A program made the translations under genes and the position numbers. From NCBI GenBank assembly GCA_026014585.1, contig JAOZIA010000023.1, positions 1 through 63,625 of the forward strand: a stretch of DNA of 63,625 nucleotides, in the 5' to 3' direction. The DNA is from Candidatus Bathyarchaeota archaeon. GTDB lineage: Archaea; Thermoproteota; Bathyarchaeia; Bathyarchaeales; Bathycorpusculaceae. The notes under the pieces were generated by a model. It made no database searches. It was given only the letters and a program-made list of their open reading frames with translations, and was not told the DNA's origin. Of the stretch, positions 363 to 8,656 are shown in pieces (position 1 is the first letter of the stretch; each line of letters opens with the position of its first letter).

Positions 363-716
363 ATGAGTCAAATATCCGAACAAAAAACCCAAAAATCAAC
401 AACTACCCTTGACCGCTTTAATTGGTCTAACAAAAAAACCGAAATAGAAGAAAAACCACGCTCCCTAATGGTAGGACAAAGCTGCATCGTTATCTATTCT
501 GAGTATGAAGAAGTAACCGAGCACCGAGAAGGTATTAGCCGAAAAAACAATCAGCCATACAGTTTTGATGTAAAATACTTCAAACTGCCCTGCAAGTGGC
601 TCCCAAACCGCACTAAAGGCTATGTGTTGCTGACCGAGGAACAATTTACCGAGTGTGCTCAACGCTTCGCTGATGCTGGCTACCCTGCCGAAATGGTCTA
701 TGTTAGGACAAAATAG
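363..716 (+). CDS. unknown element protein, 117 aa
   Basis: A soluble protein of 117 residues. Residues 1-35 are polar and likely disordered; residues 36-117 look like a compact alpha/beta domain beginning with MVGQSCIVIY and containing aromatic and charged positions (KYFKLPCKWLP). I do not recognise the family. The start ATG at 363 has a GGGGTG Shine-Dalgarno at 350-355. It opens a tightly spaced run of same-strand genes (363-2613) leading to the ATPase, so it is probably an early or accessory gene of the element. Confidence 0.55.
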   Translation: MSQISEQKTQKSTTTLDRFNWSNKKTEIEEKPRSLMVGQSCIVIYSEYEEVTEHREGISRKNNQPYSFDVKYFKLPCKWLPNRTKGYVLLTEEQFTECAQRFADAGYPAEMVYVRTK

Positions 717-1971: not shown

Positions 1972-2613
1972 ATGCGCCAATGCTTTTGTGGTGGCTTGGG
2001 AACTGGAAAAACCCTTCTTTTAGTCCGTGAAGCCCACATCTACCAACACCTATTTCCAGATAACCCCATTTATGCAAACATTACTCTAAAAGGCATCAAA
2101 AACTTTGTACCCTTAACCAGCGCCAAACAACTTTTTGAAATAAACCATTCATGCTTTATGGGTTTAGATGAAGCTTGGCACATGGCAGACAGCCGAAAAG
2201 GAACCTCAGTACTAAATGACACTCTCGGAATGCTAATGATTAACAGTCGAAAGTTGGATTGGTGGGTCTGCCTGACTGAACAATATTACACCCAAGTTGA
2301 CCTAAGAATCCGCTACATCACTGAAATATGGAGTGAGCCCATGTACAATGATTTTACCGAGTTTATTTACATACCTTACTACACCAAAGAAGGGTATCTA
2401 TTTGATGAGGATAGCTACTATGCACCTAACCTTTACGATTTTTATGATAGCGGAGAACCACCTCTAACATTGGACATTGAAGACCTCAAAGAGCAATATG
2501 ACTATTACATAGCCAAACGGAAAGGACAAAAAACAAGAACACAGTACTCAACCCGTCCAGCAACCACCGAGCAGGAAAGGAAATGGATGGCAAACCTAAA
2601 AACCCGCAACTGA
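1972..2613 (+). CDS. Zot/HerA-like P-loop ATPase
   Basis: A 213-residue P-loop NTPase. Walker A is GGLGTGKT at residues 7-14; Walker B is FMGLDEAW with D66-E67; a third motif, LTEQYYTQVDLRIR, matches the sensor/arginine region of Zot (phage pI), HerA and A32-type packaging ATPases. Such enzymes extrude or package viral DNA at the membrane. The reading frame is open upstream to 1897 and looks coding (SVFPLWAVKNKS), but no ATG, GTG or TTG occurs before 1972. A longer product from a rare codon (ATA at 1930 or 1933) cannot be excluded. It is followed by structural-looking membrane proteins, so this is most likely the element's packaging or assembly motor. Confidence 0.75.
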   Translation: MRQCFCGGLGTGKTLLLVREAHIYQHLFPDNPIYANITLKGIKNFVPLTSAKQLFEINHSCFMGLDEAWHMADSRKGTSVLNDTLGMLMINSRKLDWWVCLTEQYYTQVDLRIRYITEIWSEPMYNDFTEFIYIPYYTKEGYLFDEDSYYAPNLYDFYDSGEPPLTLDIEDLKEQYDYYIAKRKGQKTRTQYSTRPATTEQERKWMANLKTRN

Positions 2614-2739: not shown

Positions 2740-3027
2740 GTGGTTTTTTCAGTGAAACAAATGCCAAACCTAAACCTAATCAACCAAAAATTTAAAACGG
2801 GTTTACAAAAGTTTGCCCGTAACCAAAGAGCCATGATGGACATGAAAAAATTAATGGATGTAATGATTATAGTCATCATGATTCCGATTTTTATGTCCAT
2901 GTTCACAGGTCTTGCGACTACGGGTAACGAGACTACGGACACCATGATAACAGCAATAACGGGAATTTTGCCCTTGTTCTTGCTGTTTGATGTGTTCAGC
3001 GGTTTAACTGGAAAAAGAAAGAACTAA
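2740..3027 (+). CDS. two-helix small membrane protein, capsid/VP-like
   Basis: At most 95 residues: a basic, amphipathic N-terminal part (KFKTGLQKFARNQRAMMDMKK), then two hydrophobic helices (about 44-64 and 70-90) joined by a short TTGNETTD loop, and a basic end KRKN. This layout matches major structural proteins of membrane-containing archaeal viruses (spindle-shaped and pleomorphic types), where two short transmembrane helices pack in the envelope. I infer that role from size, topology and position between the ATPase and the spike-like gene. No sequence family is recognised. The start may be GTG 2752 or ATG 2761. Confidence 0.55.
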   Translation: MVFSVKQMPNLNLINQKFKTGLQKFARNQRAMMDMKKLMDVMIIVIMIPIFMSMFTGLATTGNETTDTMITAITGILPLFLLFDVFSGLTGKRKN

Positions 3028-3088
3028 GCCTCTCTTTCCAGTCCCCCTTAGTTTTTTTTAAACATCAAATTTAGAGAAGTGAAATAAA

Positions 3089-4957
3089 ATGACAAAACCA
3101 AAAATGGCACTAATCGCGTTATTCTGCGTTTTTCTACTTGTAGGTACAGTCACCTACCTAAGCGTACCCGTAGAAGCAATCATACCGCTCATTGTCGTTG
3201 GGGTTGTCATTGGCTTAAGTGCCTTCGTTGCTGGCTGGTTCGTAATGGATGCCCTAACAACGCAAATGACAAATCCCTACGCGGGTTATCAATACGTTGA
3301 ACACACGGGTTTAAACTTCCAAAACCTAATGACGGCAACAATGCAAGAGTACGCCAATGAAGCTGAACTCATTCCAAGAGCATGCTACTACTGGATGCGC
3401 CGAGCAGAATCAACAAGTCAATACTACATAAACGAAACAACCTTCCCATACGCAAAAGTCTTTACCAATTCAGGACTTGAAAACGAATACTTCAACCTTC
3501 TAAACGGTACAAAAGCTAATCTTGAAGCTGTAAATAATGTTGCTGAAGGATTCGCCGAAACAACCTTCCAACAAGACTTAAGTATCTACGACATAAACGC
3601 CTATTACCTGTCACTGCAAGCACATACAAGCCTAAAACAAAACGATTTAACAGTTCTCTACGGCATACCTAACCATTGGACAACCTACCCAGTAGCAAAC
3701 GCATTAAACTGGACATTTACAGGTGACGCAACAATCCATGACTATATCATAGACGAAGGCTCAGGCATATTTACAGGTACATCTACCGACTTTGTGCTCA
3801 ACAACGCAACCACAGTAACATTTAGCGGTACAGTCTGGGGCAATAAAGCAACACAAAACGTGATTTTAGAGCTACGCAATGCAACAGATGATACACTAAT
3901 AGACAGCGACACCCAAAACTTGGGCTTTATAGGCACTAAAACATTTGCATTCGCGGTCACAAATCCAGAACAAGGCTTAGTTTACCTAATTCTAAAAACA
4001 ACATCACACGAAAACGGAGATATGCACATACAAACCTCTGGAATCGTAACCGACACGTTCCCTGTAGCAGACGATGCCAACCCATTCATCCCAGTGCTAA
4101 CCTACAACAACCAAATCATAGGCAGATACGCATTTAACAACGCCACAGCAACACCAACAGGCACAATAGCAGAAATTGATTTAGTACCCCTCTATAACCA
4201 AGAATCCCAATACGTTAACGCTGTAAAAGCACAACTATTTAGCGCAATGCAAAACGGCATCGCATACTGGCAATACCTAAAAGCTCTTGGATATGATGAC
4301 TACACAGACATACCCACACTGATTCCGACCCCCGATCTACTTATGCCACCAACAGACAGCACATTTTGGAGCAGTACCGAAATAGGAACAGCGGAACGTG
4401 AAGCAATGCTCGCGGCTTACATGCAAAGCCTCTATGATTTATTCCAAAACGAAACAGTTGCCCGAAATATTCAAAACGTAACTTTCACCGACATTAGCTT
4501 TACAAACCTGCCCGTCTGGTGCACTGGAACAATCCACTTTAACCAAACTGACACAACAACCGCAAATTGCAGTAGCATCTGGCTCCAACCCTTAACCTCA
4601 AGCCTGACCTTAACTAAAAACAGCACTGTAAGAATGGGGCAAAGTGTGCAAGCAGTCTATCAAGACGCCGAAACAGGAAAAATCACCTACGCAATGCTAA
4701 ACGAAAATGATGCTGTTAACATTGAACGCCTCTACACACGCGATAAATATGGAACCGTAACCGAGCGCCAAAGCGTAGCCATCAGCATAACCGACCTAAA
4801 CCGCTACAGCTACAACTACGTTACTGGGTATGACCCCTTAGACCTCTCAACCACTCCAAGCTTTGAATGGACTAACCTGTTAGTCACCATGATGATTGTG
4901 GTGGTTATGGTTTCAATGATTTCCTCCTTTAGTAAAGGGGGAAGGGGCAGACGCTAA
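3089..4957 (+). CDS. spike-like envelope glycoprotein candidate
   Basis: A 622-residue membrane protein. Two transmembrane helices lie at the N-terminus (about 6-27 and 30-54), followed by a large ectodomain (about 60-590) and one C-terminal helix (about 593-614) before a basic GGRGRR tail. The ectodomain is Thr/Asn-rich with many N-x-S/T sequons (NET, NGT, NWT, NAT, NQT). A beta-rich insert around 200-310 resembles a jelly-roll or Ig-like domain. SD-like GAGAAGTGA precedes ATG 3089. Topology and neighbours fit the spike or fusion protein of a pleomorphic or spindle-shaped virus. An ordinary archaeal surface protein is the alternative, but the N-terminal double helix argues against a simple secreted protein. 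Confidence 0.55.
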   Translation: MTKPKMALIALFCVFLLVGTVTYLSVPVEAIIPLIVVGVVIGLSAFVAGWFVMDALTTQMTNPYAGYQYVEHTGLNFQNLMTATMQEYANEAELIPRACYYWMRRAESTSQYYINETTFPYAKVFTNSGLENEYFNLLNGTKANLEAVNNVAEGFAETTFQQDLSIYDINAYYLSLQAHTSLKQNDLTVLYGIPNHWTTYPVANALNWTFTGDATIHDYIIDEGSGIFTGTSTDFVLNNATTVTFSGTVWGNKATQNVILELRNATDDTLIDSDTQNLGFIGTKTFAFAVTNPEQGLVYLILKTTSHENGDMHIQTSGIVTDTFPVADDANPFIPVLTYNNQIIGRYAFNNATATPTGTIAEIDLVPLYNQESQYVNAVKAQLFSAMQNGIAYWQYLKALGYDDYTDIPTLIPTPDLLMPPTDSTFWSSTEIGTAEREAMLAAYMQSLYDLFQNETVARNIQNVTFTDISFTNLPVWCTGTIHFNQTDTTTANCSSIWLQPLTSSLTLTKNSTVRMGQSVQAVYQDAETGKITYAMLNENDAVNIERLYTRDKYGTVTERQSVAISITDLNRYSYNYVTGYDPLDLSTTPSFEWTNLLVTMMIVVVMVSMISSFSKGGRGRR

Positions 4958-4984
4958 CCCCTCTCTTTTTTAGGAGTGCTTGAA

Positions 4985-6244
4985 ATGAACCAAAAAACCA
5001 AAAAAACCCTAACACTGGCATTAATACTATCAGTTTTGGCAGTTTGCCTAACAGTTTTGCCTCAAGTTCAAGCATCCCCCGTTGACATAATTGTTAACGG
5101 AAGCTTTGAAAACGGCGAAACAGGATGGACCCGTGTAGGCAGTGGACACGTAAACACTGGGGCTACTTATGCACATACGGGCGAGGGCTATGTTTACGCT
5201 GGAAGTGCGGGTTATGGGCTAAGACAAGATTTTGCAGAAGCTATTGCAGGTACAGACATTTTAAGCTGTTCTGTGTGGGTGCGTTATTACAATCAAGCTG
5301 GCTCTTTAACCATAACAATCTATTACTCTGATGAATCAACCGACACGTACCAACAAAGCACCACCATTACTTATGCCGAATCGAACATTTTAAGCCACAT
5401 TAACACTGCCAAAAGTGTAACAGGTGTAGAGGTAAAACAAACAAGTTCGGGAAATCCTATCTGGGATGATTTAACCCTAATAGTGAACCAACCCGACCCC
5501 GACACCACCCCGCCAACCTACAGCAACCTATCACATAGCAACGAAACAGCGAGCGCTCAATGCACCTTTAACATAACCTGCAATGACGAAATCGCACTAA
5601 GCCACTACACCTTTAGCCAAAACATTACAGGCAGCTGGCAAAACACAACCACCCAATTCACAACCACACCTGAAACAATAAGCCTAAACTACACTTTGCC
5701 ATCCGAGAACTGCACCGTTGCCTATCAATGGTTCTTCAATGATACATCAAATAACTGGAACAACACCGACCTACAAACCTTCAACGTCTTTGAAGCTGGA
5801 CCCGAACCCGATACAACATCGCCAACCTATAGCAACGTAACCCATAGCACCGAAACATCAGGGGAAAGCTGCCGATTCAACATAACCGTAACCGATGAAA
5901 CCGCCTTAAGTCAATGGATATTTGCCCACAACATCACTGGAACCATGCAAAATGTAACCTCACAAACCTTCTATGAGAACCCCGAAACTGTAAGCATCGC
6001 ATACGACTTACCCTTAAACAACTGCACAATAACCTATCAATGGTTCTTCAATGATACATCAAATAACTGGAACAGCACAGAAATTTACAGCGTAAACGTT
6101 ACTGGCTATGAAACAACACCAACGTTGACACCTTCACCAACACTAACAACTCCTCAAAATTCAGAAAACCAAAGTACCTTGATTTATGGGGTGGTTTCTG
6201 TTGTGGTGGTTTTAAGTATTTTTAATCTAATAAGACGCCACTAA
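4985..6244 (+). CDS. tail-anchored surface protein with tandem Ig-like repeats
   Basis: 419 residues from ATG 4985 (AGGAG at 4972-4976, spacing 8). A signal peptide (about 1-31) is followed by a carbohydrate-binding-like beta domain (VNGSFENGETGW, about 35-165) and two tandem repeats of about 105 residues starting PTYSNLSH and PTYSNVTH. A Thr/Pro stalk and a C-terminal helix ending NLIRRH complete it. Both repeats end in YQWFFNDTSNNWN, and the DNA there is identical over 42 bases (5721-5762 and 6033-6074), a sign of recent duplication or gene conversion. The many sequons suggest glycosylation. In the element it may be a receptor-binding or decoy surface protein; similar proteins also occur as host surface proteins. 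Confidence 0.6.
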   Translation: MNQKTKKTLTLALILSVLAVCLTVLPQVQASPVDIIVNGSFENGETGWTRVGSGHVNTGATYAHTGEGYVYAGSAGYGLRQDFAEAIAGTDILSCSVWVRYYNQAGSLTITIYYSDESTDTYQQSTTITYAESNILSHINTAKSVTGVEVKQTSSGNPIWDDLTLIVNQPDPDTTPPTYSNLSHSNETASAQCTFNITCNDEIALSHYTFSQNITGSWQNTTTQFTTTPETISLNYTLPSENCTVAYQWFFNDTSNNWNNTDLQTFNVFEAGPEPDTTSPTYSNVTHSTETSGESCRFNITVTDETALSQWIFAHNITGTMQNVTSQTFYENPETVSIAYDLPLNNCTITYQWFFNDTSNNWNSTEIYSVNVTGYETTPTLTPSPTLTTPQNSENQSTLIYGVVSVVVVLSIFNLIRRH

Positions 6245-6396
6245 TTTCTTCTTTTTTGAAAGCTACATGAGAAGGTTATGTAATGCTGGATAAACTAGTA
6301 AAATATAAAAGCTGAAAGTGCTCAATTAGCAATAACCTGCTTAGAAAACTTGGATTTATGCAATGTTAACATAAACATATAAAAAAGGTGTGAAAA

Positions 6397-6852
6397 GTGC
6401 AATTATTAGGACTTTTAGAAGGTCAAATAATCGGTTCTTTGGCGATTTTAATATTCTTTGGTATAATAATGGAGAAACGTTATGTTAGTTGGTGGTCTGT
6501 AGGTGGAAATGTAATTGGTTTGATTTTGACTTTTGCGACCCTTGATTTAGACCTTTTCGTTATTATTGCTTTATCTGGTTATGTTGTTGCTGGGTTGATT
6601 TGTGCAAAGAAAAGATGGAGGAAAGTTTATGTTTTATTCGGTTCTAAAACGTATGGCTCCGCTTTGCTTGTTTTAGGTTTATTCAGCATTAATGGGGCTT
6701 ATTCATGGGTCAATAATAGTTTGATGGCTCTGGGAGTGCCTTCAATTCCAATAATAGTGATGTTCCTGATTTTTTGGGCTATAATTTCAGGCATTGTTTT
6801 TATTATTGGTTATTTTGTTAGAAAGAAAATTGATGATAGATTAAATAGTTGA
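6397..6852 (+). CDS. polytopic membrane protein of the element
   Basis: A 151-residue protein with four or five hydrophobic segments (about 8-24, 33-50, 52-70, 88-105, 120-142) and a basic end KKIDDRLNS. GTG at 6397 follows AAGGTGTG at a good distance, and a TATA-like ACATAAACATATAAA lies about 20 bp further upstream. Base composition differs from the preceding genes (T-rich rather than C/A-rich synonymous codons), so it may have a separate origin. Pleomorphic archaeal viruses carry polytopic VP3-like proteins of comparable size; the match is positional only. Confidence 0.5.
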   Translation: MQLLGLLEGQIIGSLAILIFFGIIMEKRYVSWWSVGGNVIGLILTFATLDLDLFVIIALSGYVVAGLICAKKRWRKVYVLFGSKTYGSALLVLGLFSINGAYSWVNNSLMALGVPSIPIIVMFLIFWAIISGIVFIIGYFVRKKIDDRLNS

Positions 6853-6908
6853 CGATTTTTCACATAAATAACCCCCCATAGCACATTATTCTTTTTTTCG
6901 GCAATTCG

Positions 6909-7193
6909 GCGGAAAGGTTGCCCCTCCGAGTGGGGTTTTGCAGAGTTTACCCCTGAGTTATGGTTTTAATCGCCAAGCCTAACGGCGAAAAAAGAAGCCC
7001 AATAGGTAAAAGTGCCTGCCCCTTTTAGGGGTTGGTACTAAAACAAAGGGGTCGTGAGACGGTTACCGCTTCTTTTTTCGACTAAGGCAAGGGCGCTAAA
7101 CCTACGTGGCGGTAAACCAAGAACCCCCGAAGTGAGGGGAGTGTCCTTTCCGCAACCCCCACAGACCAACACCCTTGGTGTAGTCTGGGGGTT
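6909..7193 (+). ncRNA. candidate structured non-coding RNA of the element
   Basis: No gene fits in 6853-7387. Instead there are nested perfect pairings. GCGGAAAGG 6909-6917 pairs with CCTTTCCGC 7145-7153 and closes a 227-nt loop. Inside, the 13-bp stem CGAAAAAAGAAGC 6986-6998 pairs with 7068-7080, and GGTAA 7005-7009 with TTACC 7063-7067. Hairpins CCCC/GGGG occur at 6921/6932 and 7019/7028. Outside, a strong hairpin 7154-7193 has stems AACCCCC/GGGGGTT, AGAC/GTCT and ACACC/GGTGT around a CTT loop. G+C is well above the flanks. The fold could equally be a single-stranded replication origin. It lacks the conserved cores of RNase P, SRP and group I or II introns that I looked for. Strand is assumed from the neighbouring genes. 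Confidence 0.55.
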
Positions 7194-7223
7194 AGAATTG
7201 CAACTGTGCGTTTTCTTTGCTTA

Positions 7224-7282
7224 GCTTTCTTTTCTAAAGAAAGCCGTAGGCGTGGTGCGTGGCCGGGCGAAGCCCGCCACGC
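7224..7282 (+). other. two further strong hairpins
   Basis: GCTTTCTTT 7224-7232 pairs with AAAGAAAGC 7236-7244 around TCT. A GC-rich hairpin follows: GCGTGG 7257-7262 with CCACGC 7277-7282 and CGGGC 7264-7268 with GCCCG 7272-7276 around GAA. They continue the structured locus towards the recombinase and may be its 3' part, an origin or a terminator. T-rich sequence follows at 7283-7325. Confidence 0.5.
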
Positions 7283-7349
7283 CTTTCCTTGTTAGCACAT
7301 AACAAATAATGCCGTTTTGCTTTTTCCCCTAAAACAACCTTCTTATACA

Positions 7350-7372
7350 ACTGACTACCACTACTGCTACTG
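7350..7372 (+). repeat. ACT-rich iteron-like repeat before the recombinase gene
   Basis: A further copy of the ACT/ACC/GCT triplet repeat of 264-324, now 43 bp before the recombinase start and just after a TATA-like CTTCTTATACAAC (7340-7352). Finding it at both control regions suggests a shared binding protein. Confidence 0.4.
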
Positions 7373-7414
7373 TTTGGTGTTTGTTGGTTGGTGTTTCAAA
7401 GAGACGGGGGTGAA

Positions 7415-8656
7415 ATGGCAAAAATAGAATGTCCTACTTGTCATAGTACAGAAAATTGGAAAGATGGCAAAAGAAAAACTGATTTTGGTTCAATACAACG
7501 CTATCAATGCATTGATTGTGGTTACCGTTTCAGTGAAAAACTAAATAACGGTTGTACAGGTATTAAGGATAGCCAAATATGCGCAAAGGAAGCGAAAAAT
7601 TTGGGTTTTCGTCCACGTAAACACGTTGGTACGGGAGAAGTCACACCTGAAATCCAAGCAATGCTAACGGTATTTGAAGGCTGGCTCAAAAAAGAAGGCT
7701 ACAAACCTAACTGCTACCCAAAAAACGTTAAAACACTGGCGTATTTAGGCGCAGACCTTATGAATCCTGAAGATGTCAAAGAAAAAATTGCAGTGCACAA
7801 TGTAAAACGGCAAATGAAACGAAACCTAACCTATAGCTATGAAGCTTTTCTAACGATGAATGATATGACGTGGAAGCGTCCACGTTACAAAAAAGAAAAA
7901 TCTGAAAATGCGCCACCATTTATTCCTGAAACCAGCGAACTAGAACAGTTGATTGTTGCGGCACAGAGCAAACGCATGAAAGCTTACCTACAAACCTTAA
8001 AAGAAACTTTCGCAGACCCAGGCGAAGCCTTAGCTATAGAGTGGAAAGAGATAGCGGGCAAAATCGTGAACATTAATCATCCAGTAAAAGACCATTTGAC
8101 AGGCGGTTATGAAGCATCTGAACAGTTAATGGCAATGCTTTCTGTGTTGCCTCATGATTCGGAGCGGGTGTTTTCCTGTAGTTACAAAGCTATGTCTGTT
8201 GCGTTCAATAATCTCAAGAAGCGGGTTGCTAAAGACAATAAAAACGATAGGTTCTTAGCTGTTGAGTTGCGTTCGTTCCGTCATTGGGGCGGTACACAGA
8301 TTGCGGAGTTGTCAAATGGGAACCTGTTTTCAGTGATGAAGTATCTTCGTCACAGTAGCCCTAACAGTAGCATGAAGTACATCAATATTTGGAAGTTGTC
8401 TTTCAAAGCTGAAACTCAATATGAGTACATGGAAGTCACTACGCCTGAAGAGTTAAAAGCTGCATTGCTTGGCGGTTATCAGCATGTTATCGACAAGTTT
8501 GGCGCGTCTTGGTTTAGGCGTGCTAAGCGGATTGCCCTTGCGGGTACTCCTGTCGGGCAACGTGAAAAGCTGGAGCAGACAGGTCTTGAAGCCGTTAAAA
8601 ACCCTAGTGGATACAGTGAAACCTTAGAGAAATCATTTATATCCAACAATTATTAA
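7415..8656 (+). CDS. zinc-ribbon tyrosine recombinase (integrase)
   Basis: 413 residues from ATG 7415 with GGGGGTGA just upstream. An N-terminal transposase-type zinc ribbon (C6, C9, C32, C35) precedes a tyrosine-recombinase fold. The C-terminal boxes are recognisable: RSFRHWGGT (286-294), LRHSSPNSSMKYIN with the nucleophile candidate Y322. The first catalytic box reads TFADPGEAL (198-206), where the usual arginine is Asp201, and the HxxR box has Arg instead of His at 286. Either catalysis is unusual or another residue substitutes. It closes the element; no tRNA gene adjoins it, so the attachment site is unknown. The Cys-rich N-terminus probably helps DNA binding. Confidence 0.8.
   Translation: MAKIECPTCHSTENWKDGKRKTDFGSIQRYQCIDCGYRFSEKLNNGCTGIKDSQICAKEAKNLGFRPRKHVGTGEVTPEIQAMLTVFEGWLKKEGYKPNCYPKNVKTLAYLGADLMNPEDVKEKIAVHNVKRQMKRNLTYSYEAFLTMNDMTWKRPRYKKEKSENAPPFIPETSELEQLIVAAQSKRMKAYLQTLKETFADPGEALAIEWKEIAGKIVNINHPVKDHLTGGYEASEQLMAMLSVLPHDSERVFSCSYKAMSVAFNNLKKRVAKDNKNDRFLAVELRSFRHWGGTQIAELSNGNLFSVMKYLRHSSPNSSMKYINIWKLSFKAETQYEYMEVTTPEELKAALLGGYQHVIDKFGASWFRRAKRIALAGTPVGQREKLEQTGLEAVKNPSGYSETLEKSFISNNY

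Follow-up and report, generated by a model that had tools for sequence, protein, structure and literature searches.

A probable rolling-circle replication origin with a large, exchangeable folded module in a virus-like element of a bathyarchaeon

The stretch of DNA analysed here (the window, 63,625 nt) belongs to a 2.31-Mb archaeal genome, in which it is contig C22, and it carries a GC-rich segment with strong folding potential and no evident gene. Is this segment a structured RNA, or a DNA signal used in replication? The original prediction located it at 6909-7282, described it as nested stems with additional hairpins, and considered an RNA first and an origin second. Folding of 6895-7290 with RNA parameters gave -174.6 kcal/mol, with a z-score of -6.9 on the + strand (none of 100 dinucleotide shuffles was as good) and -5.6 on the - strand. 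With DNA parameters, the z-scores for 6901-7288 were -9.5 (+) and -7.9 (-), and the helices were nearly identical under the two parameter sets. The GC content of the region is 0.53, compared to 0.35-0.45 in the flanks, and a sliding scan singled it out as the most structured part of the element in which it lies. The stems described previously were recovered, namely one of 9 bp (6909-6917/7145-7153, with 227 nt between) and one of 13 bp (6986-6998/7068-7080), together with several of the further hairpins. The region was also confirmed to be gene-free, its sole ORF of at least 50 aa (56 aa) being unsupported. The stems are not independent, however: the best structure is a single imperfect rod of about 300 nt followed by two hairpins (Table 1). 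Similarly, the core of the region stands as described but its ends do not, since the start falls at about 6897-6901 and the right end at about 7310, through the conserved CCTTTCCTTGTTAGCACATAACAA block. The GGAAAGG within the 5' edge motif (6911-6917) could pair with CCTTTCC at 7282-7288, closing the entire region. A GGAAAGG/CCTTTCC closing stem common to all members was nevertheless rejected, because the 5' GGAAAGG is absent from the related elements G128, G130 and G007 introduced below, and CCTTTCC is therefore more likely to be recognised as sequence. The conserved block also contains a 6-bp palindrome, TTGTTA/TAACAA, at 7289-7305.

Table 1. Features of the structured region and of the surrounding element, in window coordinates.
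Feature	Position	Strand	Basis or remark
Sequence of 122 bp common to the ends of contigs C21, C22, C23 and C7	1..122	+	Assembly break through both proviruses
117-aa protein	363..716	+	Near-identical in both proviruses; an RstB-like match is marginal (E 0.059) and is given no weight
Zot-like packaging/assembly ATPase	1972..2613	+	Weak: E 0.026 with Pfam Zot (PF05707), under the gathering threshold
Putative virion proteins, including small membrane and spike-like (622 aa) ones	2740..6852	+	No family match in Pfam or PHROGs
5' edge motif TTCGGCAATTCGGCGGAAAGGT	6897..6918	+	Common to provirus 2 (21/22 identical), interior differing
Long imperfect rod, about 12 helices, outer helix 6901-6907/7195-7201	6901..7201	+	RNA and DNA folds; proposed single-strand origin module
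Side hairpin of the rod, AACCCCCA...TGGGGGTT	7154..7193	+	Folding
9-bp hairpin GCTTTCTTT/AAAGAAAGC	7224..7244	+	3' half (from 7233) kept in provirus 2
Terminal GC-rich hairpin with C-GAA-G triloop (CGAAG 7268-7272)	7248..7284	+	Fold and provirus 2 alignment
Conserved block CCTTTCCTTGTTAGCACATAACAAATAAT	7282..7310	+	Rep proposed to nick here at CTTG^T (7291/7292)
Zinc-ribbon tyrosine integrase	7388..8656	+	PHROG integrase, 8.7e-13
Candidate right attachment core AGAAATCATTTA, 12 bp	8628..8639	+	Repeated at the left end on contig C7

The structured region sits in a provirus of about 10.03 kb, here called provirus 1, which spans contigs C7 and C22. A second provirus of the same genome, provirus 2, spans C23 and C21. 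The two share their left part, and this is why an identical 122-bp sequence terminates four contigs. The gene order of provirus 1 is Rep (443 aa), a zinc-ribbon protein, the 117-aa protein, small ORFs, the Zot-like ATPase, a small membrane protein, the spike-like protein, others, the structured region and the integrase. The rep gene lies just past the 122-bp end on contig C7 (L017:89-1420:-), so that in this element Rep and the proposed origin are on separate contigs, linked through the shared 122-bp end and provirus 2. In provirus 1, rep is at one end and the integrase gene at the other, so that excision would bring them together. Excision would also alter the last residues of the integrase, because the 3' end of its gene contains the candidate attachment core (8628-8656). 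The homologue of the Zot-like ATPase in provirus 2 has a PHROG Zot-like match at 0.0023, and the Pfam and PHROG searches of the putative virion proteins gave no family match. A zinc ribbon occurs in a 71-aa protein (31-246, - strand) divergent from the early operon, and another is fused to the N-terminus of the integrase (7388-7540). Similar CTACTGC/CACTACTACC repeats are found at 265-330, upstream of the gene for the 117-aa protein, and at 7351-7395, upstream of the integrase gene; they are possible shared regulatory or Rep-binding sites.

Comparison of the two proviruses reveals which parts of the region are kept. Their Rep proteins are 97% identical in amino acids and their left 742 bp are 95% identical. 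The interiors of the structured regions are unrelated, and what they share is confined to 22 bp at the 5' edge and to the 3' part beginning at 7233. The provirus 2 interior folds equally strongly (z -7.2), in both proviruses the + strand folds only modestly better than the - strand, and the apical hairpin of the provirus 2 rod resembles that of the G130c rod. In the alignment, the terminal hairpin of provirus 2 has one extra C and one extra G that pair with each other, i.e. a compensated insertion. As a separate observation, both proviruses, split by the assembly at the 122-bp repeat, combine near-identical replication genes with diverged virion genes, a pattern of sequence indicating modular exchange.

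Homologues of Rep were found in nine other genomes among the 401 searched. The equivalent region was located in provirus 2 and in five Rep-bearing elements of three relatives (G128, G130a, G130b, G130c and G007). A strong hairpin followed by CCTTTCCTTGTYNRCA marks the end of the region in six of these seven elements, including four of the five from the relatives. The seventh, G007, with a Rep 39% (about 40%) identical, has a GGCGAGCGAAGCTCGCC/GCGAAGC hairpin and CTTGTTA before its integrase, and the more distant G014 has a hairpin with CTTGATA. Thus, a hairpin with CTTG[T/A] is present in all seven elements with closer Reps and in G014. Across the 401 genomes CCTTTCCTTGTYNRCA had 13 matches, compared to 3 for the reversed control pattern; six are exactly the six elements with closer Reps, and the remaining seven adjoin neither a Rep nor a GC-rich hairpin. 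Apart from the terminal hairpin, the window contains no perfect C-GAA-G hairpin with a stem of at least 5 bp. Within the loci of the related elements, such hairpins lie inside the proposed origins, just before CTTG and on the + strand in four of four cases, and one was found elsewhere (about 180 kb of loci scanned). A second hairpin, GGC-GA-GC-GA-GC-GAA-GC-GA-GC-GA-GCC, occurs at L036 5524-5560 and at the equivalent places of L037 and L039, with its tandem G.A mismatches kept in all three. A hairpin match in G013, short, AT-rich and in a different context, was rejected as an element.

The position of the region relative to the genes varies. It directly follows rep in G128, G130a and G130c, lies between rep and integrase in G130b, and precedes the integrase in proviruses 1 and 2 and in G007; in G128 and G130 the module adjoins rep and is well away from the integrase. 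The loci of G128, G130 and G007 gave no detectable Zot homologue. Therefore, as judged from gene neighbourhoods, the structured module goes with Rep and not with capsid genes or the integrase. Scans of viral contigs with ATPase, spike, Rep and Rep-profile queries returned nothing usable, apart from two matches to the integrase zinc ribbon in which the element is absent, and the 21 matches of the nick pattern there were discarded as chance (none with a Rep). The integrase profile found nothing in the genome collection, nor did a tblastn search of plasmids and phages with Rep.

What kind of protein is Rep? The 12 Rep homologues share a motif I F-TLTT, a motif II EGxGVxH and a motif III with Tyr. 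Searches of Pfam, NCBIfam and PDB sequences with Rep gave nothing significant, and PF25227 (Rep-Arvir) did not match; in PHROGs, one distant homologue modestly matched PHROG 3419, 'rolling circle DNA replication initiation' (9.5e-5). An AlphaFold model of full-length Rep (pLDDT 47) was discarded, and a second model was made of a compact 256-aa homologue with 12 sequences, the core of which reached a pLDDT of about 90. The best structural matches of this core were microvirus replication initiators (E from 1.3e-5; phiX-like G4 A* is among the matches listed) and, within the PDB, SIRV1 ORF119 (E 0.022, prob 0.99). The element would accordingly seem to possess a cognate initiator of HUH type, with weak sequence matches and a moderate fold match to the model.

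We next consider whether the structure is selected, and in which nucleic acid. Covariation in homologues had been proposed along with the original prediction as a check of the fold, and compensatory changes were indeed found among G128, G130a and G130b: of 87 pairs, 30 differ at both partners and still pair, and 94% of cells pair. This set is small, with three related sequences from which the structure itself was derived, but the margin over controls was large: these values were not attained in any of 500 shuffles, and slid versions yielded 3-7 doubly changed pairs. The helices of the window's own rod are predicted purely from energy, because this rod has no sequence relative. Covariation alone does not separate RNA from single-stranded DNA. 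The composition of the pairs is more informative in this respect. Over the seven regions, G.U pairs account for 6.4% of the pairs predicted on the + strand and 5.5% of those on the - strand, compared to 17% in the SRP RNA and 10.5% in the RNase P RNA of the same genome by the same method, and 9-18% in shuffles. Since G.U pairs are rare and equally so on both strands, selection seems to act on DNA. With DNA parameters the proposed origins have fold z-scores of -4.3 to -11.5, and the C-GAA-G loop is known for its exceptional stability in DNA (PMC10527192). The low G.U content and the C-GAA-G hairpins thus point to single-stranded DNA.

These data bear directly on the strongest of the alternatives, a structured non-coding RNA of the element (a regulator, a scaffold or a large RNA of the ornate type) transcribed from the + strand. 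The strong fold, slightly better on that strand, the gene-free setting, the compensatory changes and an AT-rich, TATA-like sequence upstream of 6900, recognised by its letters only, would all suit such an RNA. We nonetheless regard it as unlikely: Rfam scans of the region found no match at gathering thresholds or even at E<5, and instead of a strand-asymmetric fold with ordinary G.U content we found about 6% G.U on either strand, where genuine RNAs of this genome have 10-17%. Moreover, interiors that are unrelated between proviruses with near-identical Rep and early genes would be unusual for a trans-acting RNA, and the sequence conservation is at the hairpin/CTTG end, with its C-GAA-G loops. 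Considerably less probable is a packaging signal or a secretion-recognised hairpin of a filamentous-type single-stranded DNA virus. In filamentous phages, hairpins of this kind separate the virion genes from the replication genes, and here the element encodes a Zot-like ATPase and its virion genes precede the region, but in relatives where no Zot homologue was found the same module comes directly after rep; in proviruses 1 and 2 the region may serve packaging as an additional function. An integrase recombination site (a folded attP as in CTXphi) or an inserted transposable repeat, suggested by the adjoining integrase gene and by a 21-bp hairpin of similar sequence that occurs once elsewhere in the genus, is hardly credible, as the attachment repeats are at the element ends (in provirus 2 a 22-bp repeat identical to the tRNA-Phe 3' end, in provirus 1 AGAAATCATTTA), the module lies by rep and away from the integrase in G128 and G130, and in its own genome only the 3' part recurs, once, in provirus 2, so that the region is not a dispersed host repeat.

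We therefore return to replication, and consider it likely that an integrative virus-like element uses the region as its origin of rolling-circle replication. The original prediction was right to include an origin, and this reading is favoured over the structured RNA that it named first, in view of the co-occurrence with Rep, the hairpin and CTTG end, the Watson-Crick-dominated pairs without strand bias and the presence of the module in elements lacking detectable capsid genes. The best reading is a double-strand origin, formed by the hairpin and CTTG^T, with a large exchangeable folded module upstream, which by analogy with known plasmids is probably a single-strand origin. A nick-type motif with an adjacent hairpin is indeed common to the replicons with the same Rep family, and a large imperfect fold of the leading strand lies upstream of the proposed double-strand origin. 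On the other hand, motif II of Rep has a single His (HUU-F) in place of a full HxH, and CTTG is short and followed by variable bases; both count against an origin. CS-6 (TAGCGA/T), a feature of some Gram-positive single-strand origin types and not a universal one, is found in two of the seven rods (G130c and G007) and is absent from the other five, including that of the window. In the proposed cycle, the integrase would excise the element as a circle, and Rep, the catalysis of which we infer, would recognise the terminal hairpin/CCTTTCC block and nick the + strand at CTTG^T. The + strand would then be displaced as single-stranded DNA, its upstream segment of about 300 nt would fold into the rod, and the host would start the complementary strand there. 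The rod is an exchangeable module, its design kept and its sequence replaced among elements with the same Rep. We infer the exact nick, 7291/7292, by analogy with phiX174 (CTTG^A) and pGT5/pTN1 (TTATCTTG/ATA).

Known systems offer close parallels for the double-strand origin. In phiX174 the annotated nick CTTG^A follows CAACTTG, with a CCCC-GAA-GGGG hairpin about 30 nt after it; Rep_1 (pC194) plasmids have the nick motif CTTGATA (PMC10378824), and Rep74/75 of pGT5/pTN1 nick at TTATCTTG/ATA (PMC9569500). The present elements share with these a CTTG^A-type motif, a nearby hairpin and a HUH-fold Rep with an FxTLT motif, microvirus Reps being the best structural matches. By contrast with phiX174, pC194 and pGT5, here T follows CTTG (A in G014), CCTTTC precedes it, the hairpin is directly upstream, a rod of about 300 nt is attached, and Rep combines a single-His motif II with no significant Pfam match. 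Known single-strand origins lie upstream of the double-strand origin, function in one orientation, are folded, and differ between related plasmids (PMC5703833, PMC4595007, PMC9569500), a description that suits the rod. Like ssoA, ssoU and ssoT of Gram-positive plasmids and sso1 of ICEBs1, the module is a large leading-strand fold upstream of the double-strand origin and varies among related replicons, while being larger, rod-like, more perfectly paired and devoid of a consistent CS-6.

Among archaeal elements, the betapleolipovirus SNJ2 is also a provirus whose rep and integrase, at opposite ends, meet on circularisation, and its origin resembles the region in having a conserved DNA hairpin with a more variable inverted repeat upstream (PMC13107129). 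Its Rep-Arvir (PF25227, TBP-like fold) belongs to another family, whereas here the fold match is of HUH type and the rod is much larger. In the Sulfolobus plasmid pRN1 (PMC3869888), a structured non-coding origin of 232 bp with a 100-bp stem-loop lies 3' of the replication gene, similar to what is seen here; the initiator there is the primase-helicase Orf904, the loop has a GTG motif, and the abstract of that study mentions no CTTG block. Finally, archaeal inovirus-like proviruses (PMC6813254) are likewise small elements with a Zot-like ATPase, a small membrane protein and an integrase, but their reported hosts are Euryarchaeota and Aenigmarchaeota, whereas the present elements are from Bathyarchaeia, score weakly for Zot and have virion proteins that match no family.

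The type of origin is thus a known one, and it is set apart by a Rep family that Pfam does not significantly match and by the unusual size of its exchangeable folded module. It is tempting to go further and speculate, with somewhat less than even confidence, that these elements represent an undescribed family of archaeal rolling-circle initiators whose origins are bipartite and combine a small conserved nick unit with a cassette-swapped folded single-stranded DNA module of about 250-300 nt, a new class of archaeal single-strand origin selected as DNA structure and not as sequence. The replication of small viruses and plasmids of Bathyarchaeia is largely unstudied. With a specific candidate nick site, the Rep family that goes with it and seven origins to compare, lagging-strand initiation in archaeal rolling-circle elements becomes directly testable. 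In genome scans, the pairing of low G.U content with compensatory change can also serve to tell folded single-stranded DNA from RNA.
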